A stretch of DNA of 39,063 bases, from contig CAIKAP010000150.1 of assembly GCA_903825435.1 (NCBI GenBank), positions 1 to 39,063 on the forward strand. Direction: 5' to 3'. The translations under genes were made by a program, and so were the position numbers. Every line of letters begins with the position of its first letter. Position 1 is the stretch's first letter. Source of the DNA: an uncultured Verrucomicrobiota bacterium (GTDB lineage: Bacteria > Verrucomicrobiota > Verrucomicrobiia > Palsa-1439). Shown piece after piece: positions 24,929 to 33,940 of the stretch. The notes under the pieces were generated by a model, which was not told where the DNA came from, did not search any database, and saw nothing but the letters and a program-made list of their open reading frames with translations.

Positions 24929-25624
24929 TCACTCGAAGCTGCGGGTGATTTGTCCCGGTTTGCGGTGCAGCAATGGGTCGATCATGATCATTCGCACAGC
25001 CTTCCAAATCGTCTCCGGTGGACTGTGCCGCTCGACGTGCCCTGCGCGGATCGCTGCGAACAACGAGGACAGTGTCGGCTCGGCGTCCACCAGCGTGTAG
25101 TGCTGACCGAACATCCATAGGTTATGTGCGTCAGAGGTCGCCACGACCGGCTTGCCGTACTGGGCAGCGACACGTAGCGCCTTGCGGTTGGAATTCAGCC
25201 ACGTGAAATGCAGGTGGCAATACTCGATCGCGTCGAACACATCAATGTAGCGTTCCATCCAACGGTGCAGGCTGTGCTTGAAGAAATACGGATGCGGCGC
25301 AATCATCAATACATCGTCGCCGCGCTCCCGCCGCAACGCGCGCAGATCGTCCAGCGTCCGCAGCCGTTCATACTCGCGCTGGCTGATGTTGTAGAGCAAC
25401 ACGTCGCCGTGCGGCGATTCCCATTCGACGCCACGCACCAGCAACAAGCCTTTGCCACGCACGTACTCGAAGACCCGCTCATCTTCCAACACCGCGCCGT
25501 GCAATGTTACCGCCACCGCACCGAAGCCGAGCGCCGCCGCCTTGTCAATCAGCGCCGTTGCCGGGTGCGGAAGGCCGTCTTCGGGGTCCTCGCCCGTGTG
25601 TATGTGCAGGTCAACCTTGATCAT
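24929..25624 (-). CDS. PHP domain metal-dependent phosphoesterase
   Basis: This 231-residue protein begins MIKVDLHIHTGEDPEDGLPH, the first PHP metal-binding motif (D-x-H-x-H). Later metal ligands are carried by AVTLHGAV, VRGVEWES, MIAPHPYF and VVATSDAHN, the usual His/Glu/Asp set of three metal sites. PHP proteins are phosphoesterases, and some act as nucleases or polymerase proofreaders. The start codon overlaps the stop of the AddA-like gene (ATGA), so it is translationally coupled as the last gene of addB-addA-PHP. The reaction on which it acts is unknown. The frame is open further to 25783 but those codons overlap addA's C-terminal nuclease coding. Confidence 0.88.
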   Translation of the reverse strand: MIKVDLHIHTGEDPEDGLPHPATALIDKAAALGFGAVAVTLHGAVLEDERVFEYVRGKGLLLVRGVEWESPHGDVLLYNISQREYERLRTLDDLRALRRERGDDVLMIAPHPYFFKHSLHRWMERYIDVFDAIEYCHLHFTWLNSNRKALRVAAQYGKPVVATSDAHNLWMFGQHYTLVDAEPTLSSLFAAIRAGHVERHSPPETIWKAVRMIMIDPLLHRKPGQITRSFE

Positions 25625-28512
25625 GGCAGCGTCACCACCTCGTTGCAGGCCACGAAATAGAGCAACGTTTCCGTGACACGAACGCCCGCCGTCCGCTCCA
25701 GCGCGGCAACGTAGGCGTCCATCTGTGCCCGGTAAAGTTCCGGGCGCGTCACGGCGTCCGTCTTGTAATCCACCAGCGTCCACCGTTTGCCTTCGCGGAA
25801 CAACAGGTCAATCTTTCCCTCCATCAACCCACCGTCCGTCATCACGCTGAATGGCACCTCGCGATGCACCTCGTCCGCCTGCGCCACGCGCCGCATCAAC
25901 TCCGACTTCAACGCCCGCTCCACCATTGTCCGCGCCTTGCCTTCGAGACCGCCCGCATCACCGCTCTCCAACGCCGCGTGCACTGCCAGGCCGAGTTCCA
26001 TCGCCTCCGCGCGCACCGCGCCCGATGGCTCCTCCTCGCGCGGCTCCGTTTCGCCACCGAGCTTCGACGGGCTGACGCGCGCCACCGGCTTGCTCGCATG
26101 CTCGATCAACGCCGTCCGCGACGCCAGCCACTCGCGACGTCGCGCAATCTCTTTCACGCCTTTTGCCTTCGTATCCAATTCGACCTGCAACGGCGGCAAC
26201 ACCGTCGGCTTCGCGTCCAACTCCGCAACGTTCACGTCCCGCATCAATTCCGCCGGAACATTTTTCAGGCCCGGTTCCAAGTGCCGGCTTCGTCCCGGTT
26301 TCTTCTCCGGCACGAACCACGGCAACACCAGCAACTCCTTCGCTCGCGTCGCCGCGACGTACAGCAACCGGATCGTTTCCGCGTCCTCGCGCTGCGCCTG
26401 ACGCTCGTTCACCGACGCAAACCCGGCCGTCGCGAACTTGCCGAACCGCAACTCGACCTGCTTGTCTAACAACAAGCTCGCGCCGAGATCCTGCGACTCG
26501 CCGCAGAGGTCCGCCATCACAACCACTGGGAACTCCAGTCCCTTCGCGCGGTGCACCGTCATCACCCGCACCACGTCGTCGCCTTCTTCGGTTGACGGCG
26601 ACGGCTCCTCCTCGAACTCGTCGAGCACGCTCCGACGCAGCCGCCGCGCAAACGCCCGCAGCGACCGCAGTCCCGCCGCCTCCAGCGCGCGTGCCAGTTC
26701 CAGCGCCTTCAACAGGTTCAACACGCACGACTCACCGTCCGGCTTCGTTGCGAACGCCTCGCACATCTTCGTCGCCGTCATCGCCTCCTCGACGAACCCC
26801 GCCACCGAAAACTCGTGCCGGCGCTCGTGCAGCTCGCGGAGCAACGCCGGGTATTCGCAGTTGCGGGTCACCAGCCCGTCGTCCGTCCACCCAAACACCG
26901 GCGACCGCAACACCGCGACGAGGCTCAGCTTGTCCGCCGGGTTGTCGAGGCAGCAGAGCAACGACGCCAACGTCTGGATTTCCTGGCGCACATAAAAATC
27001 CTTGCCTCCGATAACCCGGTACGGCACCTCGTACCGGTGCAGCGCATCGAGGAACGTCTCCTGCGCCGTCGTCGTGCAGAACAACACCGCCATCTTCTTC
27101 CAATCGTAATCGCCGTGCAACCGCTTCAGGCATTTCGCGACGGCCTCCGCCTCCAACGACCGCGCGTCCGACTTCTTCTCCTCCTGCGACGCCGGCAGCA
27201 GCCGCCAGACCGACGGCTCGCTCACTTTGTTCTTCGGCGCGGCTTCCAGCGCGACGTAATCCGGTTGAAACTCACTCCGGAACAAAACCGGAACAAAAAC
27301 CTTGTTCACCCAATCGAGCAACGTCGAACGCGAACGGAAATTCGTCTGGATCGTCAGCTTGTTTTTCTTCGCGGCGACGGCTTGGTACAGCTCGATGTCC
27401 GCGCCGCGGAACGCGTAGATGGATTGTTTCGGGTCGCCGACGAGGAATAATTTACCCGGCGTGCCGCCGTCGAGCATCTCGACAATCTCGACCTGCACCG
27501 AATCCGTGTCTTGAAACTCATCCACGAGGATGCAGCGGAACCGCCGCTGCAACTCCGCGCGCACACCGGCGTGTTGTTTCAACAGGTCGCGTGTCTTCAA
27601 CAACAAATCGTCGAAGTCGAGCAGCACGCGGTCGCGTTTCACCTTGTCGTAGTGCGCGACGAACCCGCGCAACCAGACCAGCGCGTCGCGCAGCAACGCG
27701 TCCGCCAATCCGGTGCGGAGCTGCTCGATCTGCTCGCCGACTTTCTTCGCCTCGATGAACAATTCGTGCGGCTTCCATTTCTGTCCCTTCAACTCCGTCC
27801 GCAACGGCGCTGCCGTCAACACGAGCGCCTCCGCCTCCCACTGCGCCGCGCCTTCACATTGCGCGTGCCGGTCGACCCAGTCTGCGATACACTTCGCGAA
27901 TCCGTCGTCAGCATTCGCCTTCGCGCGCAGCGTCTCGATCTCACCGACGCGGCGCGCGATCTCTGCCACCGACCCCGCCTTCGATGTCGCCACTGCAACG
28001 AGTTTCTGTCGTTCCTCGATGACGAGCTTCGCCAACGACCACAGCGCATCCGGCGTCACGCCGACTGCCAGCAACCGTCGCAGCGGCGAACGTTCCTCCG
28101 GCGTCTTCGCCGCCTCGCACGCAAACCAATCGGCCCACGCGTCCTCGCGAAGCAGGTCGGCCTGCAACGCGTCAGCGACCTGAAACTGCGGGTCAACTCC
28201 TGCCTCGACCGGACGCTCCTTCAACAGCCACGCGCAAAACGAATGGATGGTCGAAATCTGCGCCCGCTCCAGATCGACGAGGCTCGCATCGTCGAGTTTT
28301 ATCCGGAGCCGCTCCTTCAATTCGCCGGCGGCTTTCTCGGTGAACGTGATGGCGGAGATCTCGGTGAGTCGGACACCGGCGTTGATGGCGGCGAGGATCC
28401 GGCTCACGAGCAATGTCGTTTTGCCCGTGCCGGCGGCGGCCTCGACGAGGTAGGTCGTCGCGAGGTCGTTGGCGGCGAGGTCGCGCGCGCGCTGATCAAG
28501 GAGACCGCTCAT
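25621..28512 (-). CDS. addA: AddA/RecB-like helicase-nuclease subunit
   Basis: This 963-residue protein is a UvrD-type (superfamily 1) 3'-5' helicase with a C-terminal nuclease, acting in double-strand break resection with the AddB-like partner. Walker A is VEAAAGTGKTTLL (residues 23-35). Motif II is VDEFQDTDSVQVE near 330, motif III GDPKQSIYAFRGADI near 365 and motif V VMTVHRAKGLEFPVVVMADL near 650. The PD-(D/E)XK nuclease comes near 905 (KIDLLFREGKRWTLVDYKTD). ATG 28512 overlaps the addB stop (ATGA). Residues 406-412 lie on an exact copy of the 19-base repeat (27277-27295). AddA, RecB and other UvrD nuclease names overlap here; the neighbour decides for AddA. Confidence 0.9.
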   Translation of the reverse strand: MSGLLDQRARDLAANDLATTYLVEAAAGTGKTTLLVSRILAAINAGVRLTEISAITFTEKAAGELKERLRIKLDDASLVDLERAQISTIHSFCAWLLKERPVEAGVDPQFQVADALQADLLREDAWADWFACEAAKTPEERSPLRRLLAVGVTPDALWSLAKLVIEERQKLVAVATSKAGSVAEIARRVGEIETLRAKANADDGFAKCIADWVDRHAQCEGAAQWEAEALVLTAAPLRTELKGQKWKPHELFIEAKKVGEQIEQLRTGLADALLRDALVWLRGFVAHYDKVKRDRVLLDFDDLLLKTRDLLKQHAGVRAELQRRFRCILVDEFQDTDSVQVEIVEMLDGGTPGKLFLVGDPKQSIYAFRGADIELYQAVAAKKNKLTIQTNFRSRSTLLDWVNKVFVPVLFRSEFQPDYVALEAAPKNKVSEPSVWRLLPASQEEKKSDARSLEAEAVAKCLKRLHGDYDWKKMAVLFCTTTAQETFLDALHRYEVPYRVIGGKDFYVRQEIQTLASLLCCLDNPADKLSLVAVLRSPVFGWTDDGLVTRNCEYPALLRELHERRHEFSVAGFVEEAMTATKMCEAFATKPDGESCVLNLLKALELARALEAAGLRSLRAFARRLRRSVLDEFEEEPSPSTEEGDDVVRVMTVHRAKGLEFPVVVMADLCGESQDLGASLLLDKQVELRFGKFATAGFASVNERQAQREDAETIRLLYVAATRAKELLVLPWFVPEKKPGRSRHLEPGLKNVPAELMRDVNVAELDAKPTVLPPLQVELDTKAKGVKEIARRREWLASRTALIEHASKPVARVSPSKLGGETEPREEEPSGAVRAEAMELGLAVHAALESGDAGGLEGKARTMVERALKSELMRRVAQADEVHREVPFSVMTDGGLMEGKIDLLFREGKRWTLVDYKTDAVTRPELYRAQMDAYVAALERTAGVRVTETLLYFVACNEVVTLP
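27277..27295 (-). repeat. 19-base repeat, copy inside addA
   Basis: CCGGAACAAAACCGGAACA on the plus strand, identical to 6920-6938 and 30074-30092. On the coding strand it is read in the frame GTT-CCG-GTT-TTG-TTC-CGG, giving V-P-V-L-F-R at about residues 406-412, right after motif III of the helicase. Confidence 0.85.
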
Positions 28513-31277
28513 TCGATCTCCTTCACGGCGAGGAACGACGTGAGCCGTTCGTCCTCGATCTTCCGTTCGGCAAGCTGCTCGATGGCGTTGCCGCAAATCG
28601 GACGGTAATCGCACCAACCGCATTTCTTGTGGCCGGTGTATTGTGGAAATTCACCGGCGCGCAGCATCGCGGCGAACGTTTCCAGAATCTGCGCGAGGTC
28701 GCCGGCGCGGTTGCGGAGTGCGTCGCCGCTGAACCGGACGTACTTACCGGCACTGAGATAGGCGTACTCGCTGGAAACGACCGTGAGGCCGAACGCGCGC
28801 TCGGCGGCCAGCGCGTAGAGCGGCAACTGCAACGCTTCACCGCCATCGAATGCGTCGTCCTTCTTGTGCCAAGGCTTGCCGGTTTTGTAGTCGAGGATCC
28901 GGGCGCGTTTGCCGGCGACATCCACACGGTCAATCCGGCCGCGCACCGTCAGCTTCAACACCGTCGTCGGGCCAAATGCTTTCTCGAACTCGCGCGGCAC
29001 GAGGTCATCGGCACGGGCGATTTCGAGGTCGAGAAATTTCAGTAGATCGCGCAGCAACGCCGCGCGGCGCAACGACCAAACGACGGGCAGGCCGGTGACG
29101 CCGTCGCGCTCAAACTCGTCGAGCCGTTGCCGGGCGAGGTCGCGAAGCTGCTGGCGATAGGTCTCGCGCTCCCTCGGCTGCAACGGTAGTGACGCTTGTT
29201 TGTAAAACGCTTCGAGGATGTCGTGGATAGCGGAGCCGATCTCGCCGGGGTCGGCGCTCCAGATGTGTTCGGGCTCCTCCCAGCGTTCGAGACCGAGCGT
29301 TTGTTTACAAAAATACTTAAAGGGACAGAACGCGAATGTCTCCAGTTGCGTCGGCGCGACGACGAGTTCTTCGAGCGTGACACCGGCGGAGGGTGAGAGG
29401 CCGTCGTGCGGCGTCAGCTTCGTCTCGCCCCAGCGCGCACGCTCGGCGGCGAGGCCATGCGCAAGGTGCGGCGACATCTCAGCCAGCAGCGCGACCGGCA
29501 GGCGTTTGGTTTTGAGCAGTGCTAAATCGAACTCGCGCGCGTCGAGCGCGTCGGCGTCGTGCGCGAACTTGCCGAGCGGAATAGGTTTGGCTTCGAGCTT
29601 GAATGGCCGGAGCAGACAAGACATAAGCCGCGGACGGGCCGAGCCGGTGTCAATGCGCGGGAAACTGAACACGAGCCGTTCCCGGGCCGAGGCGGCGGTG
29701 AGCGAGAACAGAAGGCGTTCCTCGGCGTGGCCGCGGCGTTTGAGCGGGAGGTTCGGGCTGATTTGCCGGCGTTCATCGTCGAGCAGGAGCGGGTCTTCGC
29801 GGATGAGGCGAGGGAAGCTCTTCTCAACAAGCCCGACGACAATAACCAGCGGCCACGAGAGGCCGCGCGCGCTCATCACGTCGCCGATGAAGATGCCGCC
29901 GCCCTCGAAGGGGAGCGTCGGTTCGTGTGTTTGTTCGAGCGCCTGCCGGCAACAGGCGGAAAACTCGCTGAGCGTGACGCGCGGCTGAAACGGATCGAGT
30001 CCGGCGAGGGCGCTGATAGTTTCGGCGACGCCGAGGTGTTTGCCGCCGAGAGCGCGCCACGCGTCGAGGACAGCCGGAACAAAACCGGAACATGGGGCGG
30101 CGGTGGGAATGGCGTCGGCGTGACGGAAAAGCTTATCGGTCCACGCAGCGAGTTCCTTTGCCTTTGGATCGCGCGCGAGCCGGTCGCGCCAGCGGTCGCA
30201 TCCGCTGGTGATGCCGAGTTCGAGGGAGAGTTCGTCCCAGCGCGGACGGGCGTTGTCGTGGCTGGCAAGTTCCATGACGTGGGCGCGGGAGAAATCGGTG
30301 GCGATGGTTTCGAGCAGCAGCAACAACAGTTTGGCGTCAGGATGCTCGGCGAGCGGGCGACCGCCGCGGATGAGCGCGGGGATGCCGAGGTGTTTGAGCG
30401 TGTCGCGGAAGATGGCGTCGTATTGGTCGCGGCTGCGACAGAGGATGGCGATGTCGTTGAAGGTGCGGCTGGGATTTTCGCGGAGCCAGTCGAGCGCGGT
30501 GCGGAACGCTTCACGGACTTCAGCGGGTTCGCCGGGGACGGAGAGGAGGGAGATTTGAGATTTGAGATTTGAAACCTCAGATGGGCAAGTGGTGTAGCCG
30601 AGGGATTGGAACCGGTCGAGGAGCGGCTGGGCGAATTCGTTTCCGGCAGGGAAAAAGACGGCGGTGGGAGCGAGTCGCTGGACGAACTGCCGCTGGACAG
30701 CATTTAGATCGTAGAAGCCGTAGAGGAAAACTGACAACTGAGAACTGACAGCTGATGACTGATAGAGATCTGCTTCGGTGTGGAAGTTGTGTTCGGCAAG
30801 CCAGGCGCGGTAGGCGGCGTAGACGGCGGCGAGTTCGCGGAGCTTGGGTGTTTTGCCGGGAAGCGAGTCGAGGCCAGCTTCGTGGAGGTCGGTGAAGGTG
30901 GCGAGGAGTGCGTTAGCGAAGCCGGCGGTGTCGTGGACGGGCGCGAAGTAGCCTTTGGCGAGGAGGTCGAGGGCGAGCCGACGGCAGAGGAGTTGGAGGC
31001 CGAGCGGCGGAGAAATTTGAGGTTTGAGATTTGAGATTTGAGAGGCGAAGTCGGTGAGGGAGGTGAAGTGGATGTTGATGTGGCCGTGGGGAAGGGTGCG
31101 GCCGAGGGTGCGTTGGAGGTGGAGGGCGAGGAGACGCGTGGGACAGATGACGTGGAGCGGGGCGAGTGTGTTGCGACGCCGTTCGAGTTGTTGGGCGAGC
31201 TGGCGTTCGAGGGCGCGGAAGGCGCCGGTGAAAAGTTTGCGTGGCGTTCCGGCCGGAAAGTTGTTAGTTGTTCCCAC
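28509..31277 (-). CDS. addB: AddB-like PD-(D/E)XK nuclease with iron-sulfur motif
   Basis: This protein of about 922 residues is an AddB/RexB-type subunit. The N-terminal part is an inactive helicase-like domain (PLHVICPTRLLALHLQRTL; no Walker A), with SVPGEPAEVREAFRTALDWL and IGDVMSARGLSWPLVIVVGL in the middle. The nuclease is at about 650-900: GEIGSAIHDILEAF, GRIDRVDVAGKRARILDYKTG. Cysteines in FCPFKYFC (near 651) and CGWCDYRPIC (near 889) form the usual Fe-S cluster set. The start is uncertain: GTG 31277 lies 6 bases from the divergent permease ATG without a good binding site; the frame is open to 32138 but that is antisense to the permease. Several short tandem-repeat tracts and one 19-base repeat lie inside the gene. 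Confidence 0.88.
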   Translation of the reverse strand: MGTTNNFPAGTPRKLFTGAFRALERQLAQQLERRRNTLAPLHVICPTRLLALHLQRTLGRTLPHGHINIHFTSLTDFASQISNLKPQISPPLGLQLLCRRLALDLLAKGYFAPVHDTAGFANALLATFTDLHEAGLDSLPGKTPKLRELAAVYAAYRAWLAEHNFHTEADLYQSSAVSSQLSVFLYGFYDLNAVQRQFVQRLAPTAVFFPAGNEFAQPLLDRFQSLGYTTCPSEVSNLKSQISLLSVPGEPAEVREAFRTALDWLRENPSRTFNDIAILCRSRDQYDAIFRDTLKHLGIPALIRGGRPLAEHPDAKLLLLLLETIATDFSRAHVMELASHDNARPRWDELSLELGITSGCDRWRDRLARDPKAKELAAWTDKLFRHADAIPTAAPCSGFVPAVLDAWRALGGKHLGVAETISALAGLDPFQPRVTLSEFSACCRQALEQTHEPTLPFEGGGIFIGDVMSARGLSWPLVIVVGLVEKSFPRLIREDPLLLDDERRQISPNLPLKRRGHAEERLLFSLTAASARERLVFSFPRIDTGSARPRLMSCLLRPFKLEAKPIPLGKFAHDADALDAREFDLALLKTKRLPVALLAEMSPHLAHGLAAERARWGETKLTPHDGLSPSAGVTLEELVVAPTQLETFAFCPFKYFCKQTLGLERWEEPEHIWSADPGEIGSAIHDILEAFYKQASLPLQPRERETYRQQLRDLARQRLDEFERDGVTGLPVVWSLRRAALLRDLLKFLDLEIARADDLVPREFEKAFGPTTVLKLTVRGRIDRVDVAGKRARILDYKTGKPWHKKDDAFDGGEALQLPLYALAAERAFGLTVVSSEYAYLSAGKYVRFSGDALRNRAGDLAQILETFAAMLRAGEFPQYTGHKKCGWCDYRPICGNAIEQLAERKIEDERLTSFLAVKEIE
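30074..30092 (-). repeat. 19-base repeat, copy inside addB
   Basis: CCGGAACAAAACCGGAACA again, exact. The coding strand reads it as TGT-TCC-GGT-TTT-GTT-CCG-GCT, i.e. C-S-G-F-V-P-A near residues 395-401. The frame differs from that used in addA, so the similarity is of DNA and not of protein. Confidence 0.85.
30551..30578 (-). repeat. Heptamer repeat tract inside addB (AGATTTG type)
   Basis: Plus strand AGATTTG at 30551-30557, 30558-30564 and 30565-30571, then AAACCTC. On the coding strand it reads SNLKSQIS near residues 233-242, within a loop before SVPGEPAEVREAF. Same repeat type as 31013-31040. Confidence 0.85.
30729..30763 (-). repeat. Heptamer repeat tract inside addB (AACTGAC type)
   Basis: Plus strand AACTGAC, AACTGAG, AACTGAC, AGCTGAT, GACTGAT, five consecutive 7-base units. 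The coding strand reads SSAVSSQLSV near residues 171-183, inserted between EADLYQ and LYGFYDLNAVQRQFV, where a related protein would have only a short turn. Confidence 0.85.
31013..31040 (-). repeat. Heptamer repeat tract inside addB (AGATTTG type)
   Basis: Plus strand AAATTTG, AGGTTTG, AGATTTG, AGATTTG, four 7-base units. The coding strand reads SQISNLKPQIS near residues 79-89, between FTSLTDFA and PPLGLQLLCRRLAL. Confidence 0.85.
31259..31272 (-). repeat. AGTTGTT dimer next to the addB start
   Basis: Two exact 7-base units AGTTGTT (31259-31265 and 31266-31272), a few bases downstream of the GTG I assigned to addB, giving T-T-N-N in the protein. It may be an intergenic repeat at the addB/permease boundary, which would make the true addB start slightly further in. 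Confidence 0.6.
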
Positions 31278-31283
31278 GAGACG

Positions 31284-32396
31284 ATGAAGATTTTGCCGAA
31301 GTATATCACACGGCAGGTGGTCATCACGCTGTTTTTCAGCCTGGGCGTGTTCACGTTTGTGCTGTTGCTGGCGCGGATGTTGAAGAAGCTCAGCGAGATG
31401 CTGGTGAACCGGCACATGAGCCTGGAGTCTATCGGGATGTTCATCGTGCTGCTGCTGCCGTACGTGCTGAGTTTCACGCTGCCGATGGCGTTGCTGGCGG
31501 CAACGCTGCTGGCGTTCGGGCGGATGAGCGCGGACAACGAAATCACGGCGATGCGGGCGAGCGGCGTCGGGCTGGGACGCGTGGCGGCGCCGGTGATTTT
31601 GCTGTCGGTGGCAATGGCGTGTCTGTGCCTGTACATCAACACGACGCTGGGGCCGCGGTGCCGGTTTGAGTTTCGTAATCTGTTTCTGAACGTGAGCACA
31701 CACCAGCCGGAGGCGTTGCTGGAGGAGAAGACGTATGTGAAGGATTTTCCGGGCTACGTGATCTACGTCGGCAAGAAAGACAAGAACGTGATCGAGGACA
31801 TCACGTTGTACACGCTCGACGCGTCGGGCAATGTGGCGTCGAGCTTGCGGGCGCAACGCGGGATCGTCACGGGAAAACCGGAGGAACGGAAGGTGTTGCT
31901 GGACCTTTACCACGTGCGGGGCGAGGTGCGCGACTCGAAGGATCCGACCGATCCGCGCAAGATCCGACCGGGCATCACGGCAGAACATTACCCGGTCGAG
32001 CTTGACCTCGGCGCAATCTATAACCAAACGATGATGACACGGCAGTTGAACGATCTCCAGATGCCGGAGTTGATGGCGGAGATCCGGAACCTGCGAGCGA
32101 AGGGCCTGTATCCGTCGGCGGCGTTGATGGAGGCGCACCAGCGCGTGGCGGCGGCAGTGGCGTGCGTGGCGTTTGTGTTGATCGGCATCCCGCTCGGCAT
32201 CAAGACGAGCCGACGGGAAACATCAATCGGCATCGCGATCAGCCTCGGCTTGGCGGTGGCGTATTACTTCGCCATTGTGCTGGCCAACGCGCTCCGCAAC
32301 AAACCGCACCTCTTTCCCGAAGCCATCCTCTGGTCGCCGAACCTCGTCTTCGAACTGCTCGGCCTGTGGCTGCTCTGGCGGTTGTCGCGCGTCTAG
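31284..32396 (+). CDS. LptF/LptG family permease
   Basis: This 370-residue protein belongs to the YjgP/YjgQ (LptF/LptG) family, inner-membrane partners of the LptB ATPase in lipopolysaccharide export. It begins MKILPKYITRQVVITLFFSL, with the usual first helix, then MFIVLLLPYVLSFTLPMALL, GRMSADNEITAMRASGVGLG (the conserved cytoplasmic coupling segment) and, after a periplasmic beta domain, GIPLGIKTSRRETSIGIAIS. Length is normal. Only one such gene is here; a partner may be elsewhere. It starts 6 bases from addB (divergent) and overlaps aroF by 4 bases at its end. LptF and LptG cannot be told apart by sight. Confidence 0.9.
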   Translation: MKILPKYITRQVVITLFFSLGVFTFVLLLARMLKKLSEMLVNRHMSLESIGMFIVLLLPYVLSFTLPMALLAATLLAFGRMSADNEITAMRASGVGLGRVAAPVILLSVAMACLCLYINTTLGPRCRFEFRNLFLNVSTHQPEALLEEKTYVKDFPGYVIYVGKKDKNVIEDITLYTLDASGNVASSLRAQRGIVTGKPEERKVLLDLYHVRGEVRDSKDPTDPRKIRPGITAEHYPVELDLGAIYNQTMMTRQLNDLQMPELMAEIRNLRAKGLYPSAALMEAHQRVAAAVACVAFVLIGIPLGIKTSRRETSIGIAISLGLAVAYYFAIVLANALRNKPHLFPEAILWSPNLVFELLGLWLLWRLSRV

Positions 32397-33803: not shown

Positions 33804-33940
33804 CTACATCATCTGTTCATACGCCTTTGTACTTTGTACTTTCCATATTACTAGCAGACCGACCACCCATCTGTCAAAACCTTTTCCCTCCCATGCGGCA
33901 TTTGACTTTGCAAGGAACGACGGCTAGCAGCGGTTTTTGC

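Follow-up and report, generated by a model that had tools for sequence, protein, structure and literature searches.

How a conserved bacterial gene can carry tandem repeats of a unit that is not divisible by three, and where such repeats come from, is the question raised by the addB-like gene of an uncultured Verrucomicrobiota bacterium. The gene lies in a contig of 39,063 nucleotides (CAIKAP010000150.1 of assembly GCA_903825435.1; this whole stretch of DNA is called the window below), and an earlier note on the window had described four tracts of 7-nt units (heptamers) in the gene, all of them in the orientation that is free of stop codons. We found that three of the four tracts are real arrays, that they occupy linkers which are hypervariable among homologues, and that one homologue bears other heptamers at two of the same sites. 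The tracts are probably heptanucleotide microsatellites in linkers already free to vary, where they would have been born and turned over and then filtered by selection.

Period-7 arrays were detected with Tandem Repeats Finder, which reported GAGATTT at 30550-30572 (3.3 copies, 100%), ATTTGAG at 31015-31043 (4.1 copies, 90%) and AACTGAC at 30729-30755 (3.9 copies, 85%), the last continuing in degenerate units to 30763. The longest exact lag-7 runs in addB had 16 and 14 matches, and the maximum in 3000 codon shuffles of the gene was 11, so the three tracts are tandem 7-nt units beyond chance, like other bacterial heptanucleotide repeats. They encode the peptides read from them at the outset: SQISNLKPQIS at AddB residues 79-89, SSAVSSQLSV at 174-183 and SNLKSQIS at 236-243 (Table 1). 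Because 7 and 3 are coprime, an array without stops in one frame has none in the other two either, and it is read as a 7-residue peptide every 21 nt (SNLKSQI from TCAAATC). TCAAATC and GTCAGTT have no stop in any of the three frames, whereas in GATTTGA and AACTGAC every frame contains one, the reverse complements of the coding units giving one stop per 21 nt per frame. The stop-free orientation thus holds for all three tracts, and a single open reading frame (ORF) is kept across them, its 922 codons from a GTG start agreeing with the frame of about 920 codons first proposed.

The fourth tract, an AGTTGTT dimer at 31259-31272, does not belong to this set. Homologues from three genomes of one sister genus carry ACRACTAGCAAY at these codons, a conserved N-terminus one substitution short of the dimer. 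The coding-strand unit, AACAACT, gives a TAA whichever frame is read, and TAG is present in its reverse, so that stops occur in all frames of both strands. We therefore rejected it as a heptamer array and, to judge from the homologues, the dimer is a product of chance.

The peptides had been described as low-complexity loops between conserved segments, and the homologues and a predicted structure agree with this. In an alignment of the window AddB with five homologues of the family (47-62% identical; G004 was 64% identical in the search), all three sites are hypervariable linkers at which the homologues are unlike one another, and in an AlphaFold2 model they are mostly coil. The model, built on a shallow alignment, is of low-to-moderate confidence (mean predicted local distance difference test 65), local confidence being good to fair at the first two sites and low at 236-243. 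Residues 79-81 end a helix and 82-90 form a coil or short bridge between two helices, residues 174-181 lie between a helix and a strand, and residues 231-240 precede the strand at 241-244. Gaps were expected in the alignment at each site, and a gain of length was found at 79-89, where the window AddB is 5-6 residues longer than all aligned homologues, but essentially none at the other two. The 174-183 site, a variable loop before LYGFYDL, is within about one residue of the length of the G008-G010 homologues, and the 236-243 site, a variable linker before LSxPGE, is equal in length to that of the closest homologue, which has STRKIQTT where the window AddB has SNLKSQIS. The idea that the heptamers were simply captured as insertions did not survive this comparison, since two of the three sites keep the homologue length and an array in a BadF domain (see below) likewise substitutes without a change of length.

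No aligned homologue had the same residues without the periodicity. The residues differ, and the G007 homologue has other heptamers, (CCGCAAT)4 at the 174-183 site and TCATCCC (2.4 copies) at the 236-243 site, suggesting that the sites, and not a particular unit, are what the homologues have in common. With the window gene excluded, the linkers of four homologues gave a z score of 5.0 at lag 7 and 3.7 at lag 14, the remaining lags reaching at most 1.1; G007 contributes most of the lag-7 excess, the other homologues being weak (z 1.2 to 2.2).

Turnover of the unit was also seen in UvrA within one genus. The UvrA of G555 has three arrays, and congeners that are 70-81% identical have other heptamers at two of those linkers (for example CCAATCT, CTGATCA, CTTCTCA, AAATCCA, CCAAGTT and ATCAAAA). 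In fixed 90-nt segments before two conserved motifs of 13 species, lag-7 z scores ranged from 1.4 to 7.5 per species and were at least 2.2 in 12 of the 13. Pooled, and minus one other TCAAATC-bearing species, the linkers gave z scores of 15.1 (lag 7) and 6.3 (lag 14), no remaining lag exceeding 1.1, and the remainder of uvrA had no lag-7 excess. There was also no lag-7 excess in a 400-kb sample of G649, a genome in a single 4.39-Mb contig, suggesting that arrays are concentrated at particular linkers. Short words common to two UvrA linkers of one species exceeded the permutation expectation (p 0.018), which is a weak sign of possible copying between arrays; the units at a given UvrA site frequently have a core around ATC in common, as could also be expected if an old array had drifted. 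As a separate observation, UvrA in the genus of G555 lies in open frames of about 1900 amino acids (L262, L264-L273), suggesting tandem or fused UvrA copies.

The bacterium's own genome is a 3.43-Mb draft of 242 contigs, which we searched for the 14-mer TCAAATCTCAAATC, allowing at most one mismatch. Matches were found in addB (two arrays), in contig 165 (two, in one ORF of 563 amino acids) and in contigs 75, 115 and 228, and the reversed-pattern controls gave 0-1 matches. Every TCAAATC array found lies in an open frame in the permitted direction. The host ORFs encode a BadF-type kinase fused to a MurQ-like protein (two arrays), an archease and a chorismate-binding enzyme, and the array ORF of contig 115 had no Pfam match. 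In the BadF domain, the array peptide SNLKSQISN occupies the place of TGLRAAVRE without a gap, in a segment of conserved length; in the linkers of MurQ and the chorismate enzyme, the array takes the position of variable, unrelated sequence about equal to it in length. The AACTGAC type was found in addB and in one intergenic array (contig 214), and a match in contig 43 is just one near-copy, located within an ORF. Such arrays had been called normally intergenic, but the TCAAATC arrays of this genome are all in open frames and the only array that is clearly intergenic belongs to the AACTGAG type; neither a mainly intergenic placement nor the general genome abundance of bacterial heptanucleotide repeats was found. 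No exact period-7 run of at least 17 bp was present in 641 kb of non-masked, unselected stretches of the genome. For nine arrays, about 5e-6 triples would be expected within 490 bp, and addB has three such arrays; because arrays are rare in the genome, three in one gene is strong clustering. The density that first drew attention to addB is thus real, although it is not unique, as the UvrA of G555 has three arrays and the LeuS of G404 two.

Two observations concern the surroundings of these arrays. The BadF/NAGK-like sugar kinase fused in frame to the MurQ-like SIS etherase (contig 165:1186-2874, L233) is common to G002 and G008-G010. The intergenic GAACTGA array at contig 214:9435-9470 (L017) adjoins TTCACTTCGTTCAGAATGACA sequence, which we take to be a common intergenic motif in other phyla.

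Across the class Verrucomicrobiae, the exact 17-mer was present in 36 of 384 genomes and its reversed control in none, and a 21-mer was present in 7 of 388 genomes of the phylum (control 0). We classified about 75 non-redundant arrays by a codon-usage score: about 30 are in frame and sense within genes, about 10 end just before a start codon, and the rest seem to be intergenic or are ambiguous. Not one of the roughly 75 lies inside a gene in the antisense, stop-containing direction. Within genes, (TCAAATC)n reads as (SNLKSQI)n loops, and the hosts include AcnA, PurL, MtnA (two genomes), LeuS, HisF, IspE, ThiC (two genomes), ProA, a menaquinone decarboxylase and several UvrA, together with MutS, MutL and a nitrite/sulfite reductase-like protein, these last three named from sequence. 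When compared with solved structures, the host proteins have the heptamer peptide as an additional loop, of 11 residues in HisF between DAKRV and WEVFTHGG (4evz), 8 residues in AcnA (2b3x) and about 12-16 residues in MtnA (1t9k); in ThiC it lies within an unaligned linker. Composite arrays that switch from one 7-nt unit to another, apparently intergenic, were seen at L036, L038, L039 and L040 (for example CACAAGA to TCAAATC; TCAAATC to ATCATAG).

The linkers tolerate change, arrays inside genes lie only in the stop-free direction and are placed in loops, their units are specific to species, and they cluster. On our reading, which we hold to be probable, arrays would be born and turned over by tandem duplication or slippage in a 7-nt register. 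Part of their spread may then come from the copying of arrays at other places in the genome, followed by drift of the unit; such copying between arrays would account for the recurrence of one unit in unrelated genes. Purifying selection would retain those arrays that change the length by a net multiple of three, have a stop-free coding unit and are positioned in a surface loop. The array peptide is probably a neutral, soluble spacer, which is the simplest reading because homologues do without the arrays. Several points weigh against this account. A uniform mutational bias combined with selection should fill intergenic DNA too, and the random stretches without lag-7 excess, the 641 kb of this genome and the 400 kb of G649, included intergenic DNA; something would thus have to concentrate arrays at certain genes. 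Simple slippage would not yield one unit in unrelated genes, and the equal-length replacement seen in BadF and at AddB residues 236-243 is not expected from slippage alone. It is conceivable, though we put it forward only tentatively, that in Verrucomicrobiae an active process, targeted to genes, repeatedly writes or rewrites 7-nt tandem arrays where conserved cytosolic proteins such as AddB and UvrA have their linkers, the units being copied from other places in the genome and the local length being kept in some cases. If this were true, new protein loops would have a standing source in a mutational process whose period does not fit the genetic code.

Some of the same observations bear on a mobile or templated process, in which a dedicated enzyme or repeat-primed repair would copy a 7-nt template into gaps or breaks while preserving local length. 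The recurrence of one unit across unrelated genes and genomes fits such a process, as do the clustering of arrays within genes (addB 3, BadF-MurQ 2, UvrA 3, LeuS 2), the exact length kept in some replacements and the switching of units in composite arrays. We consider it unlikely, however, because no such enzyme or flanking element was identified, because the units of the UvrA linkers differ between species, often in a way that resembles drift around a shared core, and because equal lengths could also come from selection on protein length.

The tracts might instead be a functional heptad peptide or a phase-variable switch, as is known for NeuO of Escherichia coli K1, so that the peptide tunes the enzyme or slippage by 7 nt in either direction toggles a repair gene. 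The poly-psi domain of NeuO, encoded by prophage CUS-3 (PMC3046976, PMC13001214), is likewise a coding heptamer array that is open in all frames and in which three units give a 7-residue repeat, and it demonstrates that proteins can accommodate repeats encoded by heptamers, and that slippage occurs in such arrays (PMC3046976). Its unit and peptide are similar to ours, the in-frame (AAGACTC)n encoding RLKTQDS, which closely resembles SNLKSQI in its NLKSQIS register. NeuO is on when the copy number is a multiple of three and its activity grows with the heptads (PMC3046976, PMC13001214). The addB units too are open in three frames, a change of one unit in addB would shift the frame, and repair genes are among the hosts (addB, uvrA and the putative mutS and mutL). 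However, the NeuO array is a long, phase-variable one at the start of a single gene, with up to 93 copies, and tunes activity, whereas the addB tracts have about 3-4 copies (about three where perfect), are interrupted, and begin internally at residues 79, 174 and 236 of 922. Short arrays in internal loops, with units that differ between species, are found here in many proteins, including many ordinary metabolic enzymes, and homologues either do without the peptide or have an unrelated heptamer. These data make a NeuO-like role rather improbable.

A further possibility is that (TCAAATC)n is a translation leader and that its copies within genes are either internal starts or leaders that came to lie in frame. 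In viral contigs (L085-L109), a long ORF opens with an ATG 2-11 nt after the end of 14 of the 25 non-redundant (TCAAATC)n arrays, as opposed to 2 of 25 within 14 nt of an ATG on the other strand, and some arrays of host genomes are leaders too. The viral upstream arrays apparently serve as leaders without a Shine-Dalgarno sequence; the ORFs behind them, named from sequence, are DnaB-like, capsid-like and other phage genes. They resemble the TAACTGA leaders of Beggiatoaceae, which stand directly upstream of start codons (MacGregor 2015, PMC4679880). But the addB tracts lie at codons 79-243, and no ATG follows them or any class array scored as in-gene. Moreover, leader orientation depends on the unit: for TCAGTTC arrays the preference is reversed, with 0 of 14 arrays in the sense direction and 5 of the 14 in the antisense direction (GAACTGA on the mRNA strand) within 14 nt of an ATG. 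The TCAGTTN tract of addB is opposite to the leader orientation, so that stop codons, and not a role as leaders, set the orientation of arrays within genes. We therefore rejected the in-gene arrays as internal starts or leaders, and we regard their descent from displaced leaders as very unlikely.

Chance or an assembly artefact, which the draft state of the assembly might suggest, is refuted for the three tracts and scarcely credible overall, because the tracts are shorter than 40 bp, leave the frame intact and are never reached by codon shuffles, the reversed-pattern control was found in 0 of 384 genomes, contig composition is homogeneous, and heptamer linkers also occur in the single contig of G649. 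Mis-binning of the array contigs was rejected as well, their tetranucleotide and GC profiles being within the range of other contigs.

Much of this has precedent. Bacterial heptamer arrays, the stop-codon argument for their orientation and heptamers inside genes are all known (PMC4679880, PMC3046976, PMC2700814). Heptamers are over-represented among the long simple sequence repeats of many bacteria (Mrazek 2007, as cited in PMC4679880 and PMC4692102), GGGNATC of Xanthomonas and Nostoc being one (PMC4692102), and a model of slippage through polymerase contacts in a 7-nt register was proposed by Mrazek and co-workers (as cited in the same two papers). As those papers present them, the heptamers studied were mainly intergenic and repeats within ORFs were expected to have 3n units, unlike those described here. 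The TAACTGA repeats of Beggiatoaceae, Cyanobacteria and Bacteroidetes are also heptamer arrays with stops in all frames of one strand and an open other strand, some of them in ORFs; the core TCAGTTA is one base from the TCAGTTN of AddB residues 174-183, whereas the remaining addB unit is TCAAATC. In the passages of PMC4679880 on them, which do not treat Verrucomicrobia, they differ in lying mostly in intergenic DNA just upstream of starts, the few within ORFs being mainly in hypothetical proteins or at protein ends. The four-heptamer elements of Geobacter metallireducens (consensus GGACCGG; PMC2700814) are one conserved family of predicted regulatory RNA elements, for which turnover at protein linkers was not shown there. 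Borg tandem repeats (PMC9879509) resemble the addB tracts in being nucleotide repeats within ORFs that make new flexible or disordered segments, several per ORF being possible, but all of their units are divisible by three, and the addB unit is 7. Repeated, unit-switching use of heptamers as linkers of conserved cytosolic enzymes was not found in the literature searched, which left most subscription journals outside, so that a prior description is possible; the peptide SNLKSQI gave nothing in the search. What looks new is that heptamers, although their length is not a multiple of three, recur as the linkers of housekeeping proteins.

The addB product matches the profiles PDDEXK_1 (1.7e-39) and UvrD_C (3.8e-8). 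It has the AddB architecture of a UvrD-like C-terminal region and a C-terminal PD-(D/E)XK nuclease, its gene lies beside addA, and it does not reach the NCBIfam AddB equivalog cut-offs (best models 68.1 of 486.5 and 63.2 of 903.7 bits). From its domains and gene order, it is predicted to be an AddB-like but divergent protein, part of an AddAB-type helicase-nuclease. Its named relatives come from Verrucomicrobia metagenome assemblies (six loci matched in the named AddB scan of genome contigs, which sufficed to assign the family to Verrucomicrobia). The family carries two divergent AddB types in a patchy manner, the congener G001 giving a 32% match and G004, of another genus, being 64-84% identical; this hints at a possible exchange of addB within the family. 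The addA-like ORF overlaps the 3' end of addB and contains no heptamer array, as judged from lag-7 runs across the window, and an LptF/LptG permease gene starts 7 bp from the addB start. A period-7 run outside addB, CTTTGTA (2.6 copies, exact), lies at 33825-33842.

Table 1. Positions in the window of the addB tracts and of the genes around them
Feature	Position	Strand	Description
Tract 1	31013-31043	-	AddB residues 79-89, SQISNLKPQIS; coding unit TCAAATC
Tract 2	30729-30763	-	AddB residues 174-183, SSAVSSQLSV; coding units TCAGTCA, TCAGCTG, TCAGTTC, TCAGTTG, TCAGTTT
Tract 3	30550-30572	-	AddB residues 236-243, SNLKSQIS; perfect TCAAATC, 3.3 copies
AGTTGTT dimer	31259-31272	-	Conserved N-terminal codons; outside the heptamer set
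addB-like gene	28509-31277	-	922 codons, GTG start; UvrD_C and PD-(D/E)XK domains
addA-like gene	25621-28623	-	UvrD helicase and PDDEXK; ORF overlaps the addB 3' end
LptF/LptG permease gene	31284-32396	+	Divergent from addB; PF03739, 1.9e-78

Frame-incompatible microsatellites are expected to be purged from genes. In the present case, loops of essential enzymes bear them repeatedly, and the unit at one and the same site is specific to the species. Because a 7-nt period is blind to codons, the arrays can be read at the nucleotide level. Heptamer arrays are thus a clean natural marker for the origin of new loop sequence in conserved proteins, and they offer a way to test for a bacterial replication or repair process that works in a 7-nt register.

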